Of a DNA stretch of 64,000 nucleotides, positions 2,171-55,320 are shown one piece after another (position 1 is the stretch's first letter; the number at the start of each line of letters is the position of its first letter). The translations under genes were made by a program, and so were the position numbers. Source of the DNA: Branchiostoma floridae (lineage: Eukaryota; Chordata; Leptocardii; Amphioxiformes; Branchiostomatidae); assembly GCF_000003815.2 (NCBI RefSeq), contig NC_049986.1, positions 10,278,369-10,342,368 on the forward strand, written 5' to 3'. Under the pieces are notes generated by a model, which was given only the letters and a program-made list of their open reading frames with translations, was not told where the DNA came from and did no database searches.

Positions 2171-3886
2171 GTGACCTCTACATGAACAATCATTATACTA
2201 CAACTCATTTCCCATGTTGGTACTTTCTTATCATCTTGACCGTCTTTTTTCTAAAGCAAAAATTGCGCGTTGATGTCATCCATACAATTTACCTGCTGTG
2301 GCCTTTTCAAAACACAAGTGTTTGCCCCGCGCGGTCAATGACCTATTGCCTCATCAGAGCCAGTAACTGGTTCTCTTCAGTTGTGTGCCGCACAGAATTA
2401 GCATAAGAAGTTCATAAGATAGTTAGGAACAGCCTGTTAACTTTGTTTTTAATCATGTTGGCAGCATGTTGGAAGAATAAAACAACACACGCCGTCTATG
2501 TTTATCAAAGTTTGGCGGATCTACAGACAAAAATATTTGCATGAAATTTATCAGTGCCCGAGGGCTTGGTAAATATGCACAAACGCTGCCGAGTATAAAC
2601 ACTCAAATTCCGTCTCCTCCGATTTGTCTTGCATGCATATGGGAGTTGACTCGATTTCTTGGCTTGGCGAATTGTAACGTTATAGCGTGTTGACTAGCCA
2701 AAAAGGCTGTGTTTTCCATGTTTTTTTTCGTGACTTTTGCTGGGTGGGATAAGTATACACTAACTGTCCCAGGCAAGTGAGAGTGCCGATTGGCCCGGCA
2801 AGTGTCCTATAGTTACCCTCACTTGCCTGATCGGGCAAGTAAGATCTTCATAAACTTTTAACTTTTCTCTGCCATGGCACAATGCATTGGTCAGCACAGA
2901 AAAAATAGAGCCAATGATAAAGGAGCCGTTTGCGATGGAAGTGAAAATACATAGAAAAGTGTCATCTAAATTTCGGGAAAGTGTAAAGTTGTTTCGGGCA
3001 AGTTTTATGTAGTACTTGTCCAACCGTGCTTAAATGGTATGTTTTCAACTACAAATGCTCTTGTGAGTCTGCCTTCTAGTGCTGCATGTGCCCAAGACAC
3101 AGTGGATAGGTAGCAACCAACTGCAGATATGGCCTCAAAATTCGAAAAAAGCGTTGTATCTCTCCAAGCACAGGTTGATGGGAAAATCGTGACTGCACCC
3201 TTTTCTTCTATGCCATCCTTTTTCTGGCTAGCTAACAGAAAAGTAGTAGTAGTAGAGTCATACTGTGTATTACAGCACCGTTGGGGTTATACCACCCCTC
3301 ACGGGGTGACATACCCTTTATTTTGACAGAAAAGACGGCATATAAGGAAAAGGTCACGATTTTCCCAGTCAACCTTTGCTTGGGACTACCATTCTAAGAC
3401 GACAATTTATCATCGCAAGTGAACCTGTGATGCCTAATTTGCAGCGAAGTCCTGGCTTGTGACAAGCTTTAATGGTATTTTGTGCGCATGCCTGTTTGGA
3501 AACATTTCTATCCATCAATCCATCCTCCAAAGGCCAGTGTATGTCGTCCAGTCTCAGATGAAAGAATGGAAATGCCTTTAAATGTCAGTCATTAATTTTA
3601 GCATTTCAATGTCACCTTGTCTTACAGTCAATACTCTCCTAAGGCTACACTCACTTAATTTTATGGATGCCATATTCTGGTGATCACAAATAAAGCTAAT
3701 GCAGAAGGGCAAAAAACGAAAAAAAAAACACCAACAGCAAAAGATGTTCCTTATAATCCACAGGACTAAAAATCCACACCATTCTTTTCCAGGCTTGGTT
3801 TGTCTTGCGTTCACCTCCAGTAAGACTGTGAGATAATAAGAGACAACGCCTGTTCAATAATGTTTTTATTGTTATTTAGTTTGAAT
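2171..3886. other. Intergenic sequence, no gene seen
   Basis: Only short, unsupported reading frames occur here. Around 3065-3125 there is a fragment (cccaagacacagtggatag) that recurs near 63120, so it is a remnant of a dispersed SINE-like repeat. Nothing else is supported. Confidence 0.4.
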
Positions 3887-5349: not shown

Positions 5350-8300
5350 TCAGAGCTCTGCTAGTCCCTCTGCTGCTGCCAGGCTGAACAGGAAGTTCTC
5401 ATTGGCCGGCGCCATCTTTCTTTCTCTCAAGGCATCCAGGGTGATGAGGGGTTTCCCCCCTTCCTCTGCAGGGGTGGCCAACGACTTGACTTTGTTGAGC
5501 AGCTCTTTTGTTTTCACTGCAATTTCCTATGGAAGATGGAAAAATGTTATTTGGTGGGCTGACTACTCTCTCTTTGCAGCCAGGGGCAAGCAGCTCACAA
5601 TATGCGACGCAAAATCGCAAGGGTCTGGAGCAGCTGCCATTTGGCAGGTGACCTCAATACAACAGTTATTTCCCCAGGAGCGGCCATGGGACTAAAGGTT
5701 TTGACTTTTGAATTACTCACACTGGGAAGGACTCAACTACTCGTGCTTGAGGTACGGTTCTCTTCAAACACGGGACTGGTATAATGTATTGGACAATTTC
5801 CATATGAGGGACCAACACAACGAAAGCTTTGGTACTCATTTTCACCTGAGAAGAAAGCCATGAAAAGTGCCTTTCCCAAGTGCACATCACTCATCAGTGG
5901 CAAGTATTAACAAATTCGAACCCATGACTTCTGGTTTGTGAGCCAAATGCCCTGCCATTACAACACACAACCCAACCAAAAATTATGTTTGACCTAACAT
6001 TACAAACAGTATCAAACATTTTGCAGCCAGCAAAACACAGAGAGGACAACAACAAGGACACAGTCATCTTTTATGTAGGTCACAAACCCGCAGGCATACT
6101 TTATCACTGTCAAAGATAAAATACCTACCTTGTTGCTTTCACCAAATTAGCAAAGCCTGACCTTAAGGCTAGGGAAAGAATAGAAGTAGACAGACCCAAG
6201 AGGACACTGGCTGAAGGAGAGCACGGCACCTTATTTGGGAGAAGCATTTCATCTTCTGGCAGGGCTAATGACAATGAGGGGATCTTAAGACGTAAGCTCG
6301 GGGTATTAAAGGTCACCTCCTTACGGGTATTTGGGGACAAGATGGGGGTCAATGACCTTATCATCCATGAGGTCAGAGGAAAAGGCAGTTGACAACCTCA
6401 CCATAAAGGATTGCAGATGTTCAGACAGTTGATTTTCTGAGGGAAGGAGGGACGTTATACCAAAAATAAAGCAGAAAAAAGGCTAGTTCAAGGTTTTAAA
6501 GGCACATGCATAAGGTCAAAGGTGATGGCACCTAATATGTGTCTTGTTTCAATGTGTCAGGTACTGCATGGTACAGAAAACTGAGAATGGCCCATTTCGC
6601 TACAAAGGAAACTGTATGGTTAAGTACTAGTATCTGACTCCAACGTATGTCTTGAAATCCTATGTTCATGTAAACAATGCTAACAGTGCCTTAGTCTGTA
6701 ACTTTGACTGTAGAACTTGATGACCTGTATATCATCCTCTGTAGTGACCATGCACTGGCTCAATACTTTTGCTTACTAAACTGAGGATAGTGGTGAGTGT
6801 GAGTGAGTGAGTGAGTGAGTGAGTGAGTGAGCGAGTGAGCGAGTGAGTGAGTGAGTGAGGAGTGAGTGAATGAGTGAATAAGTGAGTGAATGAGTGAGGA
6901 GTGAGTGAGTGAGTGAGGAGTGAGTGAGTGAGTGAGTGACTGTGAATTCATTAATTTTTCTTGGAGTTTAATTCCACTTTAGGTGTGAATAGGAGATTTT
7001 GTCCATGATTTAAGTTTGCATATCTATAGTAAAAAAAAAAAGTACTGTAGCACAGAAACAATTTAGCTGCCAGTGGGAAGGCACCATGAAAGTTGCAAAT
7101 ATTTCAAGATTAATAGTTTTTGCTTTTTCTTGATCATGTTGATTGTATGTTTATGACAAAAAATCGAGATAGGTAGACAACACAAACATCTACTACATGT
7201 AATACTAAAGTGTAATATGTAACAATCTAAACCCTCTCTCTATATTGTCTATTTACTTTTGCATAATTTTGTGATATTGCAGAGTGATTATAAGACACAT
7301 TCTGTCTGAATCATTACCTCATTCCATGATGGTCAGACTCACCTTGATGACCTGTTGGTTCTCCATCCCATCATCCTCTGCACACTGTACCATCGCCATG
7401 GCGATATCTTTGTGGATCTTGCCCATTGCCATGGACTCTGGGAGGGGAAATGAGAGAAAAGAAGTATATCAAATGGCCTAACATCATGAAAATAAGAACT
7501 GATATAGATGTTGTTGCAAAAAGGTCAATAACAGTGGCTTTCCCAATGGTATTGTGACAGTCATACCATAGGGAACCATCCAAAATTGATTTACATTTGA
7601 GTGATATTTACCTCCATGAAATGTCATGGAGGTTATATTTAATTTTTACCCTGCGTTTGTCTGTGTGTGTGTGTGTGAGTGTGTGTGTAAACAAGATAAC
7701 TCAAGAACGGCATGATGGATTGGTTTCATACTTGGTGTGTTGGTAGGGTGTGATGAAAGCTGGAAATGATTAGATTTTGGGCCCCCTAGCGGCTTCCCTT
7801 GGTACTGCAGCGCAACCTCCGGTTTTTGCTATCTCGTGTTCTGAACATGCTATGGTCACGATTTTTGAGTGTTAGATAGCTCTCGTGCTCAGGAATAAGT
7901 GACATAAGTTTGGGCCCCCTAGCGACTGGGTTTGGGATAGCAGGGGCATTTTTGTCAAAAACTTCTGAAGAGGATAACTCAAGAAGGGAACAACGGATTT
8001 TCATGATTTTTAGTATGTAGGTACCTTAGACAATGTTGTACAAGATAAGATACTAATTATGCAAAATACAAAAGTACATTTGCATGATTTATGAGATAAT
8101 TCTTTCATAGCAGTTTTTTCAATGTATCTCTTGTCCCGGACATGATATGGTCTTGAGATTCGTGTGTTAGATAGCATGCAGTGTCATGCTAAAGTGGGGC
8201 AAGTTTCAGCCCCCTAACATTTGATTTCGGAACTGCAGGGGCGATTTTGTCAAGACATTCCAAAGAGGATAACTGCAGAAAGGATTGACGAATTGACATC

Positions 8301-11300: not shown

Positions 11301-13156
11301 CTTAAACCCCACTGTTACACTACTCCCCCTTTTCTTTTCTAGATTTGTACTCGAATCTCCGAGTTTGATATCCCTGTATGGCACATCTCTACTAGTAGCC
11401 TGTTACTCACAGGGCCGTCATGCAAATCAGTGACACACTAGGAGAGTAGAAACAGAAAGAAACAACATGCCGACACCCGGGATCAAACCCGGGCCGGCAG
11501 ATCACAAATCCATCGTGTAAACCACAAAGCTCAGAGCTGTTGGCGTGGTCAGTTTGGCAGCGCTTGAACATCACTGTTACAGGTGCACCCAATGTGCACA
11601 TGCATCCAGCATTTCGAGCTCAGAACTATAGTATTGTACCTTAGGTAGTGGGTCTCCATCCTGAACCTGTGATGATTTGATGTAGTACCACTGTCGGTGC
11701 CACTGACCGTACACAAACGACGGGATGTTCGCCGGGTCGGCCGCCAGCTGGGACTTCCTGGTCAGCACATCTCTCTGCTGCTGACTGACCGATGGGTACG
11801 ACCACGTCCATAACACATCACCACTCGTGTCTCTCTCTGGATGTATACAAACATAAAACATAAGGTAAAAGTAGAGGTAAACATCATAGTCCTGTAGCAT
11901 TTTTATGGCTGTAAGGTCAGTGGGTTGCTATCCACTGTGTGTAAGGCACAGTGTTGGAGGGCGAAGCAATACGGGGCAATAGCGCAGTATCGCCTAAAGT
12001 ACGGCCTGACCAGCAGGAGGGCTGGGACCAAGGGCAATACGAAATAACCCGTGTTGTCTTTTATCCTTATGTCATTTTTTTTTATGGTTCTCCTGTCGGT
12101 TCGACAGATGAGCAGGCAGACAGGCATTACCTGTTTTGCCTGACCTGCACATGACTTTTTATGGTGAAGGAGGGGTGTGCAATTCCTTCTCCACCCTCTC
12201 GTCTACTGGAGCACTAAGTCTCACAGGGACAGAACTGTATGACACCGTACGGCTTCAGCAGATGCAGCTTTGTTTTTCGGAGTATCCGTCTCCTAGGAGG
12301 ACTGCCAACCAAGGATGTAAGGGGTTCCTCCTACCCCTTGTGCCATGGCGCAGCTAGATACTCATTTACACCTGAGTTAAGTGAGGAAAGTCGTGTTAAG
12401 TGCCTTTCCCAAGGGCACAAGATCGGTGACACTGCAGTAGGATTCGAACCCGCAACCTCTCGGTCTCCAGCCGAATATGCTGCCACTGCGCCACGCGGCC
12501 CCACTGGGCGGCAATAACGTTCGATACAGGTGTTCCGGACTGGGTGATAAAAAGCCATATCATACAGGATTTGAAGTTTTATCACACAGGCTTCCATCGA
12601 ATAATTCGAGCATACCAAGTGCAGCACGGTCGAAAATTCGAATACCTGATTCGGACGTTAGAACATTGCTGTTGTAAACAGTTTTGTTCATGGGCACCAT
12701 ATTTTCTCAACTTCATATAATGAAATAGTACAACACTGTGTATTCCACATCACCCTCTGTCCCAGCCCTCCCGCGGATCGGATCGCCATTCCGGTGATCC
12801 CTACCCGCAGTCGGGCTGGTACCTCGGGTGATACGGAATACACCGTGTTGTATTTTACACACAATTTCAGTTTTACAAATATCTTTCTACATCCTTGACA
12901 AAATTAAGGTTATCATGAACAAAAACTCACAAGGAGGAACTTTGGCCCCTCCCCATTTTATTTGTTTATCTGGACTTTGCCAGCAAAAATACAACTTTTT
13001 AACGAAAGAAAACAATTTTAAAGTCAGAGAAGACAATTATTATCACTAGAAGTATATCTTGTCAGAAATGATGAATCTAAAAGTGTTGTTTAACGTAAGA
13101 ACTTGACAAATCTTACCTATGAGAGATGCTGCAACTAAGTCAGCAAGCGCCGCCAT
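5350..13156 (-). CDS. DENND10: DENN domain-containing protein 10 (FAM45A-like)
   Basis: Seven coding exons on the minus strand, all with GT-AG junctions and consistent phase: 13156-13117, 11836-11640, 10902-10674, 10439-10328, 9000-8792, 7437-7343, 5526-5350 (stop TGA 5352-5350). They join to 352 aa, against 357 in human DENND10. Recognisable blocks are GDVLWTWSYPS near residue 20, HFSLVIISKDFNPEKY, CQSEENGTFLVKEFDPRKAY, LLKKKLVVYHP, FPAFVWHRQNWNILY, ADLYDVFVNLSDGEISVAP and the C-terminal NENFLFSLAAAE. The start is chosen because MAALADLVAASLIERDT aligns with the vertebrate amino end and sits on the shared promoter. In vertebrates this small single-DENN protein acts on late endosomes and is linked to Rab27; by homology the same is inferred. 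The gene is head-to-head with SURF2. Introns contain a TTAA-flanked MITE, SINEs and a degenerate repeat block. Nothing appears broken. Confidence 0.94.
5826..5965 (-). repeat. tRNA-derived SINE, degenerate, minus strand
   Basis: Read on the minus strand, a degenerate tRNA-like head with a B-box relative (GGGTTCGAATTTG) is followed by a body with CACTTGGGAAAGGCAC and a TCAGGTGAAAATGAGTACC block. The same order occurs in the better copy at 12355-12502. It lies in the last intron of DENND10. Confidence 0.55.
6793..6940. repeat. (GAGT)n microsatellite
   Basis: About 150 bp of tandem GAGT/GTGA tetranucleotide with scattered interruptions (gagtgagg, gagtgaat), inside the last DENND10 intron. The antisense frame reads as an apparent Ser-Leu-Thr-His repeat peptide, which is an artefact of the 4-bp period. 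Confidence 0.95.
7609..8670. repeat. Repeat block with short terminal inverted repeat, DENND10 intron
   Basis: The block opens with TTACCTCCATGAA at 7608-7620 and closes with its inverse, TTCATGGAGGTA, at 8659-8670. Inside, a unit of roughly 300 bp recurs in diverged form near 7690, 7970 and 8270, marked by gataactcaagaa, by ggattg/ggattt and by gggccccctag. A palindrome around the left end (cctccatgaaatgtcatggagg) fits a foldback start. No transposase is seen. It fills most of the DENND10 intron between 7437 and 8792. Confidence 0.55.
9035..9245 (+). repeat. SINE-like repeat with tRNA-like head
   Basis: A tRNA-like head (tagggtgttttgctcag, then GAGTTTGAATCCTG as B box) is followed by CATTGGGAAAGGTAAAT, tttcctcact and a body ending in aaaagctccttgctctaag. 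The layout matches SINEs at 12355-12502 and 35436-35575. It lies in DENND10 intron sequence. Confidence 0.6.
9601..10132. mobile_element. piggyBac-like MITE, 532 bp, TTAA target duplication
   Basis: The ends AGGGGCATTCCACTCCA (9601-9617) and its exact inverse (10116-10132) form a 17-bp perfect terminal inverted repeat, with weaker similarity continuing for about 15 bp (GGGAGT block). Each end is directly flanked by TTAA (9597-9600 and 10133-10136), the target duplication of piggyBac-family elements. No transposase frame is present, so this is a non-autonomous copy. It lies in the DENND10 intron between exons at 10328 and 9000. Confidence 0.8.
10191..10289. repeat. 99-bp palindrome
   Basis: The arms AATTAGGCTATGTTGATTAC... 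and ...GTAATCAACATAGCCTAATT are complementary along almost the whole length, with a one-base centre in CCTCAATGATTGAGG and a few bulges near the middle of each arm. It would fold into a hairpin of about 45 bp. It lies 38 bp from a DENND10 exon end and immediately follows the TTAA element. Confidence 0.8.
11464..11575 (-). repeat. tRNA-like SINE head, minus strand
   Basis: On the minus strand a GCCCGGGTTTGATCCCGGG arm (B-box stem) is preceded by a degenerate anticodon-arm region. It does not complete an acceptor stem, so it is taken as a SINE head and not a tRNA gene. Confidence 0.45.
12132..12252. repeat. Dispersed hairpin-containing repeat, copy 1
   Basis: The segment gcctgacctgcac..gactt, a GGTGAAGGA..TCCTTCTCCACC hairpin, ctcgtctactggagcactaag and cagggacagaactgt recur at 15958-16085 with the same order and about 90 percent identity by eye. 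Copy 1 lies in DENND10 intron 1, copy 2 in a SURF2 intron. Confidence 0.7.
12355..12502 (-). repeat. tRNA-derived SINE, best-preserved copy
   Basis: Read on the minus strand: GGGCCGCGTGGCGCAGTGG (A box), then GGTTGCGGGTTCGAATCC (B box), then a body with CTTGGGAAAGGCACTTAAC, tttcctcacttaa and caggtgtaaatgagtat. The two-part pol III promoter plus a body shared with other copies in the window identifies a tRNA-derived SINE in DENND10 intron 1. Confidence 0.8.
12727..12856. repeat. Foldback element with about 28-bp inverted ends
   Basis: The left end TACAACACTGTGTATTCC..ATCACCC and the right end (inverse TACAACACGGTGTATTCC..ATCACCC) form terminal inverted repeats around a short GC-rich centre (gatcggatcgcc...). 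The same end sequence occurs alone at 13793-13825 and, weaker, at 32190-32215. This fits a small MITE family. Confidence 0.6.
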
Positions 13157-40800: not shown

Positions 40801-43800
40801 AGTCATGTCAATGCATGTTGTTGTTGTTTCGTTTACACCACATAGGGTATAAGTACTTGAAGAGTTGTTAAAGGAGGTGTCACACATTAAACCCTGCCCT
40901 GGCCAGGCCTGGCACACCACTCTGCACTCATTGGTCAAAATTGTTAACACCATTAACTCCAGTCCACACAGGTGCCATACTACCCTTAATCATTGAAACA
41001 GTGGCTCGGGTATGGATGCGTGCAAATTTTTGGCATGTGCTGAGCTATGCCTGATAAATAAGGAAAAAACGCTGACAGAACTTAGGCCATTACTATTTGA
41101 CAAAATCACAGTCTTCATTGGTCTCGACGCTCACATATACAAAAAAACACTATTGCGGAAAAGGGTGTCTTTTTCCTAGATTTAAAAGTTTGACAGTTAT
41201 CCACCACAGATAGTACCAAACATAGGGACATGATTACAAATTTGGGCAAGCATTATACAGGCATTTCTTTAATAATATCTACAAACGACGACGACATTCA
41301 CAATTACACAGTGAAGCAAAGCTTTGATGCAAGTCTCGCCCGTGGGAGTGGAATTATCAGAAGGAGGAAGAGGGACTGAAGGTCTAACTACCTGACTCTG
41401 AGTCGCTACTATCGGAGGAGCTTGAACCGCTGCTGGTACTGCTGCTATCGCTGTCCGACGAGCTGCTACTGCTCGCGCTCAGTCGCGAGGGACCGCCCGC
41501 TTCAGCGTTGGCAGCAGCCTCTTTCTCTGTGAGGACAAAACACCACTGCAACTTCAGAAACAAACTTCCACAGGAAAGTCAGGCCAACAAACTGGCTACA
41601 CCCCAGTGGTGTTGCCAAAAACTATACACCAAAACACAATGTGTTGTTGAATTACTTGTCAAGTTCAAAGAGATCATATTTCAAAAATAAATTTCTAACA
41701 GGCTCCAGCCTAATAGTGTTGCCAAAAACTGTACATCAAGGCAAAATATACACTGTTGCATTACTTGTCAAGTCAAAAGACTGCAAATTTCACCTTACAT
41801 TTCAAATTCATTTCCCTCAGTTCTCAAGAATTCTTTTTCCCTTAAAACTATTTTGCTTCGCTTCAAGTTCAAGACAAGGGTATAAAGACAACAAAATGAC
41901 CACTTGTACAATACCTTTCTTGGCCACCTTGGACTTTGCCGACGACAGTTGACCACTGACATCCTGTAGCCTCCTCTCGAGCTCCTCCTTCTTTTGTTTG
42001 GTCACCTCTTCCTTTGTCTTGCCCTGGGGACGTTTCGCTGCAACAGAAGGGGACCCTTTATCTAAAAGAGGCACTAAGTTACTATCTTATGTAGAACAAT
42101 CATGCTTAATGTTCAAATACAATGCAATCTTTACAGCTGGATTAAAAAACGGAGATTTACTTCCGGATCTTTAATGCTTGATGGTTTACATCTGGTGTTA
42201 TCTTGTTATCTCAATGAAATTACAGTAAAAACTGCCCAAGACAACTAAGGGTACCAATGAAATCTTGTCTACATGGACAATAGATACAGGAATTTTAATG
42301 CTTGCGACATGGGGAAAAACTAATAAGAGACTAAACAAATTGACTGCATTAACCAGGTGGTGCTTATAAAGAGGTGGTCACTTGTACAGGTTTGACCATA
42401 TTACTGTATAATGAACAAAATAATATATGACAAATATAAGTTGAGGGAAGAAAAGGAAAAAAGAAGGCAACTCACCATAAGGTTTTCTGGGCTTTTTCCT
42501 GAGACAGCTCATGACGTATCTCTCTAGTTCTCGAAGGGTGGAAGGTTTGAGGGTTTCGAAGTCTATTTCTATCTCATCGGGGTTGGAGTCTCGTAACGAC
42601 GGCTCTCTGGATTGGATGATGTGTACTACTCTCCCCAGCTTGTCACCTAGAAGATAATCCAGCATGTTAGGTTAAGAGGAAATTGAACACAGGAAATGAG
42701 ATAACCTAGTACAGATCATTTTTCGGACCTTGGACCTAATTTCCTGTCTGTCAGTCCACAGAAGTAGATACCTGTACCCATGGCATGAAACAATCCAACT
42801 CTACAAGACAGAGTGACTGTGATTAACATGGGTTGTTTTCACTCTTACCTCTCAAGATATTAGCACAACATCACTGCCTGTATGGCTAGTGCCCATGCCC
42901 AGATTGAGAGGTGACTAGTCTAATTCACAAACATGTCCTTTTGCTCCCAAACATGTACTTTTTCAGTGGGGAAACATAATTTCTTCCATTTCAAAAAGCT
43001 TAATCAAGGACTACTTGAGAAAAACACTGACCAATACATACAGACTAACAGGAAAATGACATAACCTACTTCTGGGACCTTTTACCTAATTTCCAGCCAG
43101 TGTCCAATAAAACTTAAATATGAGCAAAGTTCACCACTGAAAAAAAAAGCAATTTTGTGATTGGACAGCATCACATATTGTTTGGACACTGCCAACAAAC
43201 ATTGTCCTTGTAAGAAAGCGGTCGTACCTGGTAATTTGTTGATGTCCAAGCTGAGCTGCCTCTTCTCGTCATACGTCATTGGCTTACACAGATCCTCATC
43301 CTCGCTCTCGTACGCTGGAGCTGTCGTGGTCTGAGCTTTACTTTTCTTCGATGATTGTCTACTAAAATTACAGGAACAAAGGATTAGTTAGTACCTACCG
43401 CAATTTCTATCATACAACACAAACTAAGCCTAGCTTTGCCTTGTATTAGTCGAATCCAAGCACATAACTTCTGCTTTTCCTCTTTTAGTTACAGTTCTGA
43501 ATGTCTATGTTGTCCTATGATGGTGACGGCAATTCTGGATTGTCTAAAAACCTAGTCAGCGGAATCTGCAATTACAAGTAAAACATTAACCAAAGTAGCA
43601 ACTATTTGCGCATGGTGTCCAGAGCTAATACAGTCTCCAATATACAAAGGAATTTGTTTGCCTTGTGATTTTGTAAGGACCAAGGAATAATCGTGAAGGA
43701 AATAAATTGGTTATCTGGCATCAACATGCAATACAACCGGGTATCACTAGGGGACGCCACTGTAAAGGGAGGATCATCGCCTTTAAAACATGTTTAGAGG

Positions 43801-46800
43801 ACATGCAAGGTTTGTTGGTGTGAGAGGTGCAAAGAAGCAGAGTCTAGTAGAGCTCTACAATGATGAAAGGAGTCACCTTGGTTGTTTCCTGGCCTGCCCA
43901 ACTCTGAAACAGGAAACAAGGAACCTTTTACTTCTCACAGGGCCAGGCTCCACTAGTACATATACCTCTCCAACATTCTCTCAAGTCATAGAAATCTGAA
44001 GAAAGCAGGAAGGCGAGATTTTGTCCCTTCGCATCTGAGTGACGATGTCCAACGTGCTTACTTAGGTTCGGACAGTTTAACCGTTAACTTACCTGCTGTT
44101 GGTTTTCTTGGGCTGCGTTTTTCTGGGTTGTTTTGGAGGTGGCTGTGGTGGGGGTACAGGAGTGGGCGCTGGGACATCCTTCTTAACAGGGACAACTTCA
44201 CCCTCCTTTTTGTCTTTCTCCTTTTTCTTCTTCTTCTTGTGTTTGTCCTCCTTATCCTTGTCTTTGTCCTTTTCTTTGTCTTTGTCCTTCTCTTTGTCCT
44301 TGTCTTTTTCTTTCTTCTTTTTATGGGGTTTGTGTTGTTGGGATGCTTCTGATAATGCGCTAAGCTGCTCGTGTACCGCTCTCAACTGGAACAAGAAAGT
44401 GGTAGATGGCTTTACACATCTACTTTCACATCTTATACTTTATTACATGGCATCAGACCAAGACAATGATATGCCCTTACAACTAACCATAACTACCTTT
44501 ATATTTTTTAAGTAAGTACCCAAATATAAAGCAACAGAAGGGCACTATAGATGGAAATAAAAAAAACCATGGTCTACCTTAGTTCAAGCACACCACAGAG
44601 AAGCTACGCTTTCCAGAATGCCACAGACTATCAGAAATACTTGTTATAAGGGAGCTCCCAGATGTGCAAACCCAAAAGCCCTGGCATTTGTATTGCTTCC
44701 ACATGTTTGGTTTTAATGATTAAGAGATGTCAACAGACCTGGTGCCAGGGCCTGGTGTGCAGCATGTTCTACAGCAAGCGACAAAGACGGGACAATATAT
44801 GAAAGAGTCATTTCCACAGTTTCACAAGTGGAGATATGGAACGAGCCAGTAGAATGGTTGATTATTGTTCTGTGCTACAGATATAGCTGCCATCAGGCCC
44901 CTGCTAAGAAAGCTGGATTTAACGTTCTAAAATTTATTGACAAGCAGCTACAATGCCAAAGACGTAGTGACAAACCACCACACCATTCAATATTCTGTAT
45001 ACGCAAGACATTTGCCATACATTAATATCAAGGTTCTCGCCAGCATAGTTTAGCATAAGGGCCCTTACGGCCATGTATTGTATCTGCTATGCTGTAATTC
45101 GTACCTCCTACGCTTTTCAGGTGTTTTGCAACAAAGGCAAAAAATGTCGGCTTTAATTCACTCACTCCTGCGCAGCTTGCCTTATGGCTTCACCACACTA
45201 AGATGCCCCTTTGCTGCCAAAAAGTCCTGGTGAGAACCCTGAATATCTTATGCATTACAGAATGCCGTCAAATCCACCCTTCATGTTAGTAACTTCTGCT
45301 AGCTTTTATGTTAGAGCGGAGTTCTAACACTTAAACATATCCTTAGTTTGTGACTTAGTGAAGCCACCATGTCATAATTAAAAGCAGGTTAACACTATAA
45401 AGCACAGAATTTCATTAAAAATGTGAGAGAAAGGAAACCGACCAGATCACAGACACTCACTTGATCTTGGAGTTCCCGTAACCTCGCCTCTCTCTCCTCT
45501 TCGCTGTCGGTGCTGTCGGAGTCGGAAGAAGAGTCGCTGCTGCTACTGCTGGTGCTCGTGTTGGGTTCAGGTTCCGCCGCGGGGGGTGGGACAGGGAGGG
45601 GCTGGGGCTCAGGGTCGGGGGGTTCGTCAGGCATTTTGGCATACTTCATTTCAAACACATCCTGTAAAAGAAGGTAACATATTATTCCATAAATTATTCT
45701 ATTCGCAGCACAACAGGAAAGGAAGTTTTCACAATACAGTAACACATTCACATTGTCATGATTTTGCAGTGGAAAGGCACAGTAAAAATAAACCATGAAA
45801 ATTTTCCAATGTACCGTAACAAACAAAAAAATATTCAGCTCCATCCAAAGTTACAAGTTACAACAAAATTTATTTTTTTCGTTTTATCTGGATGATTGGT
45901 TCACTACTATAGTGGTGGAAAATGGAGGCTTTGCCAAAAAGGGCAACTTATTCCAATGCATCAGTTTCATCAACAGTTTATACATACACCACATCCACCG
46001 ACGTTGAGCAACAATCTCCCGTACCACAATCCAGTGTCAAAGAAGAGAATTGGACTTAAAAGGAGTTTTCACCACTTACTTGTAATTTTCTGGCCATTTG
46101 TACTACGTCGTGCTCGGGAGGGTTATATCTGTAGCAGTTGCTGAAGATCATTCTCATGTCCGACGCAAACTCCTGGGCAGACTTGTACTCCCGAGTATCC
46201 ATCTTTTTCTGTCAGGAAAAAAACAAACAAATTCCAATATTCTACCACTTCAAAGGTACAAAGATAACATTCATAGCCAGAATTCTATTTGAAGAATTCC
46301 ACCCTCCAAAGACATTATTGAAATGCATGTGAATAAATAAGGAGAACAATTTTTATAGGCAGGATGGCTTAGATATGCAATTATCTAAAAGTGACAACAC
46401 TAAACCTTCCCATTGCGTATGAATGTACTGTTTTCGTTGGCTGTTGTTGTCTTAAAATGACTCAACCTTGTAATCATCTGTACCCATGGCATGAAACAAT
46501 CCAACTCTACAAAAGAGTGACTGTGATTAACATGGGTTGTTTTTACTCTTACCTCTCAAGATATTAGCACAACATCACTGCCTGTATGGCTAGTGCCCAT
46601 GCCCAGATTGAGAGGTGAAAGAAGTCAACGAACCACGATAAACAGCGTACGAAATTACCTTTACTGTTCCCAGATCCATGGGGTGTTTGATGATTTCGTG
46701 GTAGTCGTGTAGGCCTAGCAAGTCAGCGTCCACTGGTTCATAGAATGGCCAAGCATACGCCTGTTAAAGAGAAAAAACACATCGAGTTTAGACACAATGG

Positions 46801-49800
46801 TTTCCAATATAATTAAAGGTAACTGTAGTATTGTGTGAAAATTTGCTGTTACTACTAAGCTTATTCTATCACTAACATAAATTCATTTTCGTGTGGAGAG
46901 AGTTTAAAGTTCACAATCCAAAGAATTCTGTAGTAGTGATACCAAGAAAACACAGGCATATTCGTCATGTTTTCACTATGAAGGGGTCATTCCAGCAAAA
47001 AAACACTGCTAACTTTTGCAAATTTATAGCAATGTCAGGAATGCTTGTTAAATGAGACAACGTGTACTTCAAAGATTTCATAACTTCCAGTTTTGATATC
47101 TCACAGTTCTGAACACAATATAGATCATGTGATGTTTGATTGGTAGATAGGTCTTGGGGCAGAGAGAAAGTGGTGTAGCTTTGGGCCCCTTCAGTACCTT
47201 TTTCGAGCTCGTTTAGTTTCAGACTTTGTTCTCTCTAAAATGAGAGAAGAGAAAATAATATATTCCAACTTACCGCATGTTTCTTGGCAAACATCTCCTT
47301 GATGATGCCCTGACAGTACTTGAGCTGTGCGGACAGCTTGCCCTTCTTCTTGGAACTGTGCTGCTCCGTCTCGGGGAGTTCCCTCCTGGGCGGCTTGATC
47401 TGTCGACCACTTTCTCTCCTGGCAAACAAGGAGCAGAGTAGTCAGGTATACCGCTTCATTTACATGTACAACAAACAGGCTACAGTAATGGCATGTCTCT
47501 ACTTAAAACCTTCATTAAAGAACTACGAGCAACAAAAAGATAGCATTTCTAACTTAGCACCTACTATTTCAACTATGAAGCATGCATTTACTCTTGAACA
47601 ATACAGCATACACGTCTATTTCGTCTTTGAAAGCATTTACTTTTACTGCTATATTCAAACAAGCAATGTAAAACATACAGACACCTAAACATACAAACAT
47701 GCTTTAGAACGCTCACATTCTACTTTGCTAACCCATGCAGTGTGTTTCTGAACAAATGGGATTGAACCCCTAAGCCCACAATGCCAAATTTGCGGAAAAA
47801 AATACCAGTATTCTACCATTCCATCACTAGTAGAATCTTACACTATAACTGTATTCTACATACTGCAATACATATTCTGCAATAGATAACTATACATACT
47901 TAAAAGCCTTTTTTGTGGGATTCAATTGCTGTTGTCGACAGATTTTTGGAGTTGACTTTTGAGCATCATACTAAGTGCCACTTGACTTGTTCTTTGGAAG
48001 GACTATGTTTTTGGAGGACTATGTTTTTGGAAGGACTATGTTTTTGGAAGGACTATGTTTTTGTCTTTTTTCAAATCACTTGTTTGGGCAGATGTAGCAG
48101 TTAAAATGTGGAGAGACAGACGCATGTTATTGTATGATTAGAGAAAAGGTAGATCCTGCAGGTGGTGTTCATTACCAAGCTTTGGGATGATCTGGTTCCC
48201 ACCTGACGGGAGGGATTTTCGCTGGTCTCGGCTCGGTGGTGGAGGGCGACGATTCGCTGCCCGTCGTCGTGGAGATGGTGGTGGGCGTGGTCGTGTCCGC
48301 TTTTCTCTTCACACCTTTCTTGACCTGGCGCGGGAAAATGTTTCTCATTTTAGTAGGAGCTATCAGCTATTCACATACTATCATTACGGCCTATGAAAGA
48401 AAACCATCTCCCGTTAAAAACAAGAATGTGTAGAATGATTTTTTATACTCTAGAAGAAGTTTTGGGTCTCGATACAAGGCTTTTTGTTGCTTCTGCCTTG
48501 TACAGGTTTCTCTTTTAAGAATGGTGTTCTACTCTTTTACCATACAAGAATTAAACTTCTGTATCAAGCTAAGCTATTGTGAGTAAAGCCCAGCATTCCC
48601 TAGTAATGGACAAAATATCATTCATGTTTCATGCATACAAGAAAGCTGTAATACAATTCATCATGGAAAGACTAAGGCTATCAAAAATACCTACGAGTGA
48701 AAGAAAGGCTTTGGTAGACAGGCAGTTTAAAGGGGATTTTCAAAGCAGGCATGTAGGAGAAATGTTTGGTTGGAAGTTTTACTACCTTCTGACTGGGACG
48801 TAGCCCAGTGGCCCTGCCCATGAGTGGTAGAGGCCAGGAAGGAGGCTGCCCAAGCTCCTTGGTGGGAAACAACACTATTGTTTAACCCAAAATTATCACT
48901 GACACATTGATGTGACACTTTTGTTTCAGTGTAGTCAGTTTTTCTGTGTGACAGAAGCAGGGCTGCTTGTTCAGAATAGCTCTGCATACCTTAAGTCATG
49001 TTTAGGTCTAGAGTTTTAGGTTCAGGTCAGAAGTCCAGACCCAAACCCATGGTATATGTGTGCAAGAAATATTTCGTTGTGACAATCTAAAAACTATACT
49101 TGACAAATCATATACTGTTATTAGTAAACACAAATGTTCAACAATAAACAAAAACAAACAAATGTTTTTGTCTTTTTCTAGTGTAAACTTTACAATCTAT
49201 GGAAAGTTTCAGATGGTCTGGAACAAAAAGGAAAATACAAACAAGAGAACAGTTTTTTCAAAGTGTAGAACTGGTTACCATCCTTTGTTTTTGTACTTCA
49301 GTCTAACTGAACCTGAAAGTTTTTACAAGTTCAGTTCCAGCCGAGTAAACAGGTATGCTGCACTAGTTTATAATGAAATACTTGATGGCTACTTTGCTGC
49401 TAGTGCTAACTGCATAATGTGGGACACATTACACCCTCTACCTGCTGCCCAACCCCATGCAAAACATTAAGGAGAATCCAATAAATCGTTGCCCACTGCT
49501 AAGTTTCTGTGTCTGCATTTGGTCGTGCATAATGGGAATGGAAGCTACCAAAGACATAATAAAGGAGATACTAACCTTGGTGGGGACTGCCTGCCCAGGC
49601 TGGGAGATGATTGGTGCAGGAGCTGTGGATGGACCCTGTGGTAACGTCTGCGGAGGCATCTGTAACTGTGGCGGGGGTGGCTGCTCTATGGGCGGGGGCC
49701 GGGGCTGCTGCGTTCTGGCGGGGGGCGCTCTCGTAGGGGGAGGTTGTACTACTGGCGGAGGGGGCTGATGTGGGATGGGTTGTGGCGGTAGACTCAGGTC

Positions 49801-53670: not shown

Positions 53671-55320
53671 TGACCTACCCTTCAAGAAGCCTTAGAATGC
53701 CCTGTTTTAACATGAAAACATCTAAAATACCAAGGGCCATCTAATATCATTAAATACAGTAGTGGCCATGGCCATTTATCACAAAGGCATTTAACTGGGG
53801 CACAGTCATTTTTTGACGGCCTTTACTTTCAAGAGAATGATTTTCTTGCAAACCTGAAAAAAAAAAGCTTGGTACAAACTTAGAGGGACATCTTTAATAG
53901 AACTCTGCACACATCTAATAGATCTATCATTTTTTTACTTGCTCAAATTCATGACTTTTTTTCCACTGTGGACTCTAACAGCAAAGACCACTAAGATAAC
54001 TGATACAAGAGACATTTGTGTTTATGCTGCCATCTACTCCATGACTTCATAGCTGAGAACATACGTGTACCAAAAGTTGTATTGATCAAAATTGTCCATG
54101 TGACCATATTGCAAATGTTGCAACAAACCAGACAAGACTTTAACATACCTGTCCTGCATGGTATACGTGTACATGTACTCTAAATCAAATACCGATGGGA
54201 CAAAATCGTCTGACAAAAGGGTGTGGTATCTTTGCAGGATGGGTTTAAAAACAGGTTGCGGCAAAAAAAACGTTGCCAAGACTGGAAACCAGCTATTTGA
54301 ATGACAATGCAAATTTATGAGGATTTCCTACCTAGCTCATCCGGTGATTATATTGCCTGGGTGACAATAACAGAAAATTGTTTGAGAGCAGTCTGTTTTG
54401 ACAGTTGTTTTGACAATTAAGTGCAAGTTATTAATTGCATTCATATTGTAATAATACACTATCAGATCATCAGTCTTTTTGTTATCACCTTTGGATTCAA
54501 TAATCATTTGATCTGGTTCCCAATAGGGAAATCTTACTGACAAATCCTTCCATGAGTTTTTGACCAATCGGTTATTTCAAAGTCACCAACTTTAAATACA
54601 TGCATGGATAAGTTGATAAAGGAGCCAAGAAAAATCAAATGTTGACCTGACAAGTTGTATAGTTTAAAAAAGCTAAAGCCATTTGAATGATTTTAGAAAA
54701 GAATTGCTGACCTGCCTGACCATAAATATTTGTAATTGTTAAACTGGATGTACTTGAAAGCATGTATGCATTTGACCTACATTAGCAAATACAATGAATG
54801 TTGAAGTTACAATGGTTTATCTTGTTCTTGTTTTCTCTAAGTTTTGTAAGAATTGCCAGTATGCACTCTACTATAATGTACTCGACATTATTTCTTTCAG
54901 GCCAACAAAATCATAAAATTCCAATGGCATTGTGGTATGAAATAATTACAATGTACATATATAGCAGCTAGGTGACTAAGCACCCATACAGTTTATGATG
55001 TGTATGCATGGAAAGTAAGTAGCAATAATTTGACCTGTCAGTCATAAAACCTTCCATTGAGTCAAACATTTGATTATCCTGATTTTGTGGATAGAATATT
55101 TGATCAAGAACAAATCACTTCAAAATCGTTGGTGTTCTCTTAACAAGCAGTTAAAAGGTCGATATTATCTCTTTTTTTAACATTGCTGCAACTATAATTA
55201 TAAAACGTTGTCAAACTTTCCATAGTAGTTGTGACAATTATACACTTATAATTAGTGCTTATAATGGGTACTGTTTGGTTGGTGCTGGTAGACTCCACTG
55301 CTTTTGTTTATTAGCCTGGT

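Follow-up and report, generated by a model that had tools for sequence, protein, structure and literature searches.

Box H/ACA small nucleolar RNAs (snoRNAs) carry a pocket complementary to ribosomal RNA (rRNA) or small nuclear RNA around a uridine, about 14-16 nt before a box, and form ribonucleoproteins (RNPs) with dyskerin, NHP2, NOP10 and GAR1. Position 2314 of yeast 25S rRNA is a pseudouridine (Psi) guided by snR86 (PMC8307265), and position 3797 of human 28S rRNA is a 2'-O-methylated pseudouridine (Psim) at 100% (PMC6182160), for which SNORA48, hosted by SENP3-EIF4A1 (PMC6466398), is the guide (PMC5597630, PMC6466398). Several snoRNA paralogs within a single host gene are a familiar finding; in chicken, cis-duplicated snoRNA paralogs occupy different introns of one gene (PMC2653536). 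Here we describe a similar arrangement in a 64-kb stretch of the Branchiostoma floridae genome (NC_049986.1, positions 10,278,369 to 10,342,368, hereafter the window), with a different type of host, a BET bromodomain gene, two introns of which each contain one of two near-identical segments, copy A and copy B. Judged from their sequences, these segments are very probably a duplicated intronic gene for a box H/ACA guide RNA that is functional in at least one copy and whose 3' pocket would guide a conserved uridine of the large-subunit (LSU) rRNA.

The original prediction placed two near-identical copies on the minus strand at 42770-42914 and 46476-46618. Alignment confirmed the copies, their strand and their coordinates, with lengths of 143-145 nt, and in a repeat search of the window they came out as two families, of 105 nt (99%) and 40 nt (95%), with spacings of 3704 and 3706 nt. 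Within the RNA, copies A and B differ at one base of the hinge (G/A); their 3' terminal loops differ by a substitution and an indel of 2 nt, and their tails by one base (ACAGGT/ACAGAT). The claim that differences occur only in the hinge and the terminal loop thus stands for these two elements, but one further base differs in the 3' tail. The stems and all pocket bases are kept in both copies. The flanks, aligned together with the copies and judged by eye without a statistical test, show no clear similarity, and no third similar segment was found in the window (best ungapped 61/145).

When folded without constraint, both RNAs adopt a hairpin-hinge-hairpin-ACA structure in which each hairpin has an internal pocket. 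The 5' hairpin is closed in both copies by a 9-bp stem (ACCUCUCAA/UUGAGAGGU) and has the pocket UCUG/AAUAUC; the 3' hairpin is closed in both by a 7-bp stem (ACCCAUG/CAUGGGU) and has the pocket UUAAUC/UUCAUGC. The ACA directly follows the 3' closing stem and precedes three bases leading to the predicted 3' end. Free folding of both copies recovers the stems, the ACA position and the H/ACA fold that had been predicted. The hinge, given in the prediction as AAAACA, needs one correction: in the 13-nt hinge, A-AGAGUR-AAAACA, the box after the 5' hairpin is AGAGUR, which starts one base past it, and AAAACA lies at the hinge's far end. The H box consensus is ANANNA, which the AGAGUA of copy B fits. 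Copy A has a minimum free energy of -47.0 kcal/mol (z -2.19; 7 of 200 shuffles fold equally well) and copy B of -46.8 kcal/mol (z -3.02; 0 of 200). Because the opposite strands give similar z-scores (-2.16 for copy A and -3.12 for copy B), folding energy cannot pick the strand, which is picked by the ACA, the H box and the target.

For the comparison with rRNA, we used stray eukaryotic rRNA in prokaryote assemblies, picked by an LSU sequence pattern, which led to nine loci (L001-L009); two pattern scans of viral contigs found no eukaryotic LSU rRNA. An Rfam scan of eight loci (L004 left out) identified LSU_rRNA_eukarya in L002, L003, L005 and L009, and L001, L006, L007 and L008 had no match at threshold. 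Seven rRNA sequences cut from L002, L005 and L009 were then searched with the pockets. In this check of the pockets against rRNA, which the original prediction had outlined, the 3' pocket formed 13 of 13 Watson-Crick pairs with GCAUGAA-UG-GAUUAA of the L002 LSU rRNA, in the U-N geometry. This site scored 30 against 20 for the next different site (34 against 22 with mismatch-free scoring), and the right arm of the pocket sits 14 nt before the ACA in both copies. Duplex energies with the L002 target were -7.5 kcal/mol for the right arm and -2.1 kcal/mol for the left arm. In a chance test over the 1340 U sites of L002 LSU and L009 small-subunit (SSU) rRNA, neither the 20,000 shuffled arm pairs nor the 20,082 pairs of arms drawn from the minus strand of the window gave a single case of 13 Watson-Crick pairs; the latter control took arms 3741 nt apart at every third position and therefore tests random arm pairs, not real hairpins. 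When both strands of the window were scanned for hairpins that are closed by 6-9 bp, are followed by ACA and match the target in 7/7 right-arm and 6/6 left-arm positions, the two copies alone were returned. With one mismatch, a further hairpin was seen at 55242 (+). A BLAST search of copy A against plasmids gave one 30-nt match at chance level (E 5), and a search for papers joining the target letters and the word pseudouridine found none.

The unpaired target U corresponds to yeast 25S position 2314 by L002 numbering. In the helix 69 (H69) frame of L002, all 18 yeast positions compared carry the expected base; the bases expected at three of them (2254, 2258 and 2260) are assumed, and the other 15 come from the table in PMC8307265. 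Of the 13 sites used to test this frame, all fit at this offset alone; among the other offsets up to 150 nt, the next best fits 10. With a shift of 1483, 12 of 14 yeast sites fall on human ones (18 tabulated), 2314-3797 among them, against six for the next offset. By complementarity and numbering, the predicted target U is thus that of yeast 25S Psi2314 and human 28S 3797.

We then looked for relatives with Rfam, at E values up to 10. Copy A (301 bases) gave four matches, two of them to H/ACA families (SNORA21 and S. pombe snR5) and two to families of other kinds, on the opposite strand, and copy B (221 bases) gave six, namely ceN84, DdR18, snR5, SNORA51 and SNORA21, all full length and on the same strand, and one long non-coding RNA family. 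The 3' hairpin alone matched snR5 and ceN84 and not DdR18. The consensus of DdR18 (a Dictyostelium H/ACA RNA, RF01568) contains both UUAAUC and UUCAUGC. Of these, UUCAUGC lies at a distance of 14 nt from the ACA that follows it and ends the model's closing stem, with a second ACA at 11 nt; however, copy B reaches 21.4 bits against a threshold of 80, and its 3' hairpin alone has no match to this family. Similarly, the consensus of ceN84 (a Caenorhabditis H/ACA RNA, RF01655) contains UAAUC and UUCAUG, 14 nt before the ACA, but the score is 22.5 bits against a threshold of 80, the right arm shares 6/7 letters, the closing stem is another one and in the model one additional base per side is unpaired. 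The close agreement of DdR18 and ceN84 with the amphioxus RNA in pocket sequence and spacing means that these two RNAs may also be directed at this rRNA site. SNORA21 was rejected as the family (18.8 bits against 80, E 0.11, with a match mostly in the hinge), as was S. pombe snR5 as a relative, which aligns over its full length but lacks the pocket motifs in its consensus. Human SNORA48 has the same rRNA position by numbering and is likewise an H/ACA RNA with a protein-coding host; it differs in that the amphioxus host is a BET gene with two copies. Yeast snR86 shares the target position, 25S Psi2314, by which it is likened to the amphioxus RNA; it is not among the Rfam matches. Altogether, the folds, the 13/13 rRNA match and the pocket common to DdR18 and ceN84 support the H/ACA identity originally predicted.

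Several results weigh against this identification. Anatomy by itself is within chance and would not carry the claim: a scan for hairpin-H-hairpin-ACA with a canonical H box, controlled by 60 first-order Markov shuffles of the window, found one locus with 7-bp closing stems, copy B only (shuffle mean 0.6, maximum 3), and 10 loci with 6-bp closing stems (shuffle mean 5.5, maximum 10). Copy A was missed by the 7-bp scan because the last base of its hinge box, AGAGUG, is off the consensus. The rRNAs compared are those of other eukaryotes, not Branchiostoma's own, and the loci were in effect chosen for the target because the search pattern already fixed 12/15 target letters; this also bears on GCATGAATGGATTAA, which was read in six other loci after 12/15 of the target letters had been so fixed. 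At the same site L005 and L009 pair 12/13 with the 3' pocket, the left arm of which forms no stable duplex with their GAUCAA (0.4 kcal/mol against -2.1), nor with the human site, which we take to be GAUGAA (0.0 kcal/mol against -2.1). When G-U pairs are allowed, 13 pairs are reached by 104 of 20,000 shuffled and 150 of 20,082 window arm pairs. The check with Rfam H/ACA models named in the original prediction gave weak full-length H/ACA matches (5/6 for copy B) but no family at gathering score in either copy, and each weak match alone is not significant (E 0.11 or more). SNORA48 is absent from the matches of both copies at E up to 10, a comparison made with the Rfam model; because SNORA48 is unmatched, we call the amphioxus RNA a functional counterpart of SNORA48 and snR86 and not a shown homolog. 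The segments could also be chance intronic hairpins, doubled by duplication and functionless, as the similar yield of loose anatomy scans in shuffled sequence might suggest, but the 13/13 match to a known modified site at 14-nt spacing and the pocket common to DdR18 and ceN84 make this exceedingly improbable. It is the combination of the near-exact duplication with the rRNA match of the 3' pocket that exceeds chance.

The last point on the unfavorable side concerns the 5' pocket, for which 8 arm pairs and 20 registers were tried against the rRNA of L002 (partial LSU), L005 and L009, and against human 18S and U1, U2, U4, U5, U6 and U12 RNAs. No convincing target was found in these RNAs, the best sites being scattered, with mismatches or G-U pairs. 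Two candidates, GUAGC[UG]GUUCC (L002 LSU ~1276 and L005 LSU ~936, score 19) and GUCGGC[UC]UUCCUA (L005 and L009, score 18), each need three upper-stem pairs opened and were rejected as too weak. A 5' pocket target is not obligatory for a box H/ACA snoRNA, and this pocket probably lacks a target or acts on an RNA other than those tried here. Recent copying, or a further target, would account for the identical 5' hairpins of the two copies.

The second copy arose by duplication. Near identity inside the RNA together with unlike flanks is compatible with several histories: the RNA alone may have been copied recently, the copies may have undergone gene conversion, or the duplication may be old and strongly constrained. 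The original prediction saw in the differences a sign of selection on structure, and all of them do lie outside the stems; however, as 42% of positions are unpaired, the chance that 3 or 4 changes all miss the stems is 0.07 or 0.03, and the argument is weak. A near-perfect match that covers almost exactly the RNA and does not extend into the flanks is also expected of precise RNA copying, as by a dispersed repeat or snoRNA-derived retroposon that inserted twice in the BET gene and left two dead copies, and the off-consensus H box of copy A would agree with such an origin. We consider this very unlikely, since no A-tail was seen at either copy and no target-site duplication was found (none for copy A and 5 nt for copy B, when 5 nt or more occurred in 332 of 1000 random placements), the 64 kb contain no other similar segment, and stems and pocket bases are intact throughout in both copies, which lie in sense orientation. 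A variant compatible with the preferred reading of two guide RNA gene copies is that one is functional and the other a decaying duplicate, copy A being the likelier pseudogene. This is possible, if on balance not likely: copy B alone fits ANANNA, and H/ACA families make up 5/6 of its weak Rfam matches against 2/4 for copy A, with queries of unequal lengths, but the stems, pockets and ACA of copy A are intact, and its hinge, AGAGUGAAAACA, is the same as that of the Rfam SNORA21 consensus. This off-consensus box therefore occurs in a known H/ACA family.

The hosting of the two RNAs, in sense orientation, by separate introns of a BET gene was borne out by the splice sites, both introns being GT..AG, and by Pfam matches of the joined exon translations to Bromodomain (PF00439, E 4.7e-22) and BET (PF17035, E 2.1e-29). 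One residue of the bromodomain query (Q in KKHAQAYAW) derives from a splice acceptor, which should leave the result unaffected. For the ET part, the nearest solved chains are BRD2, BRD4 and BRD3. The features are listed in the table.

Table. Coordinates, in the window, of the two predicted box H/ACA RNAs, their 3' hairpins and their host introns.
Feature	Position	Strand	Description	Basis
Copy A, box H/ACA RNA	42770..42914	minus	5' hairpin 42912-42847; hinge AGAGUG + AAAACA; 3' hairpin; ACA 42775-42773	alignment, fold, pocket scan
Copy A 3' hairpin + ACA	42773..42833	minus	arms UUAAUC / UUCAUGC, complementary to LSU rRNA around yeast Psi2314	
Copy B, box H/ACA RNA	46476..46618	minus	hinge H box AGAGUA; 3' hairpin; ACA 46481-46479	alignment, fold, pocket scan, Rfam
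Copy B 3' hairpin + ACA	46479..46537	minus	pocket arms identical to those of copy A	
Intron A	42647..43227	minus	interrupts ET domain; contains copy A, 313 nt from the 5' and 123 nt from the 3' splice site	
Intron B	46209..46658	minus	interrupts bromodomain 2; contains copy B, 40 nt from the 5' and 267 nt from the 3' splice site	

Other features were noted in the window and in the rRNA loci. At 41590-41792, two direct-repeat pairs with 78% and 82% identity, spaced by 107 and 109 nt, are probably an old tandem duplication between BET exons, and a minisatellite with units of ~16-17 bp at 47984-48065 lies probably in a BET intron. ARAGORN called a tRNA-Ser (GGA) at 12428-12500 (-), with an Rfam tRNA score of 30 bits against a threshold of 29 and several acceptor-stem mispairs; it is possibly a pseudogene. 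A simple scan for 10-nt antisense to L002 and L009 rRNA found no C/D snoRNAs in the window. L005, from an assembly labelled Chloroflexota, has at 5392-5807 a group I intron (Rfam) that interrupts a eukaryotic LSU rRNA gene, and represents eukaryotic contamination. In L001, L006, L008 (assembly labelled Escarpia laminata tubeworm endosymbiont) and L007 (Planctomycetaceae), foreign sequence is joined to eukaryotic LSU rRNA at TAG/CCAAATGCC, and L006:1-6654 has stop-free frames of 889 amino acids, with reverse-transcriptase-like motifs, and 506 amino acids, with zinc-finger-like motifs. Site and motifs are those of R2-type retrotransposons, and the junctions most likely represent such elements from a eukaryote that were included in bacterial assemblies.

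In the mechanism that we propose, the BET pre-mRNA would be spliced and the RNA trimmed from the debranched intron, after which it would presumably be bound by the usual H/ACA proteins. Its 3' pocket would pair with GCAUGAA-U-G-GAUUAA of the LSU rRNA and present the U for pseudouridylation; in amphioxus 28S rRNA, the target would be the U of GCAUGAAUGGAUUAA, if the sequence is so there. For both copies, we infer expression, RNP assembly and modification. The coupling of BET transcription to pseudouridylation, raised in the original prediction, is speculation, and we think it unlikely that a guide for an LSU pseudouridine shared by yeast and human moved into the BET gene and was doubled there so that BET transcription sets the modification level. 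A full-text literature search showed no BET-hosted snoRNA among the matches listed, the words 'BRD' and 'bromodomain' were absent from the accessible part of a paper on human snoRNAs and their hosts (PMC8176728), and the claim that none has been described is unproven; in a literature search for amphioxus snoRNAs, no such title was among the matches listed. Overall, this looks like a guide RNA of an ordinary kind whose host gene is unusual. For an RNA gene recognized from intron sequence alone, the analysis names a target that can be tested. If the RNA is expressed, a chromatin-regulator gene joins the hosts of rRNA-modification guides, and the locus may illustrate how the guide of one conserved site can vary in host and sequence among lineages, its pocket unchanged.

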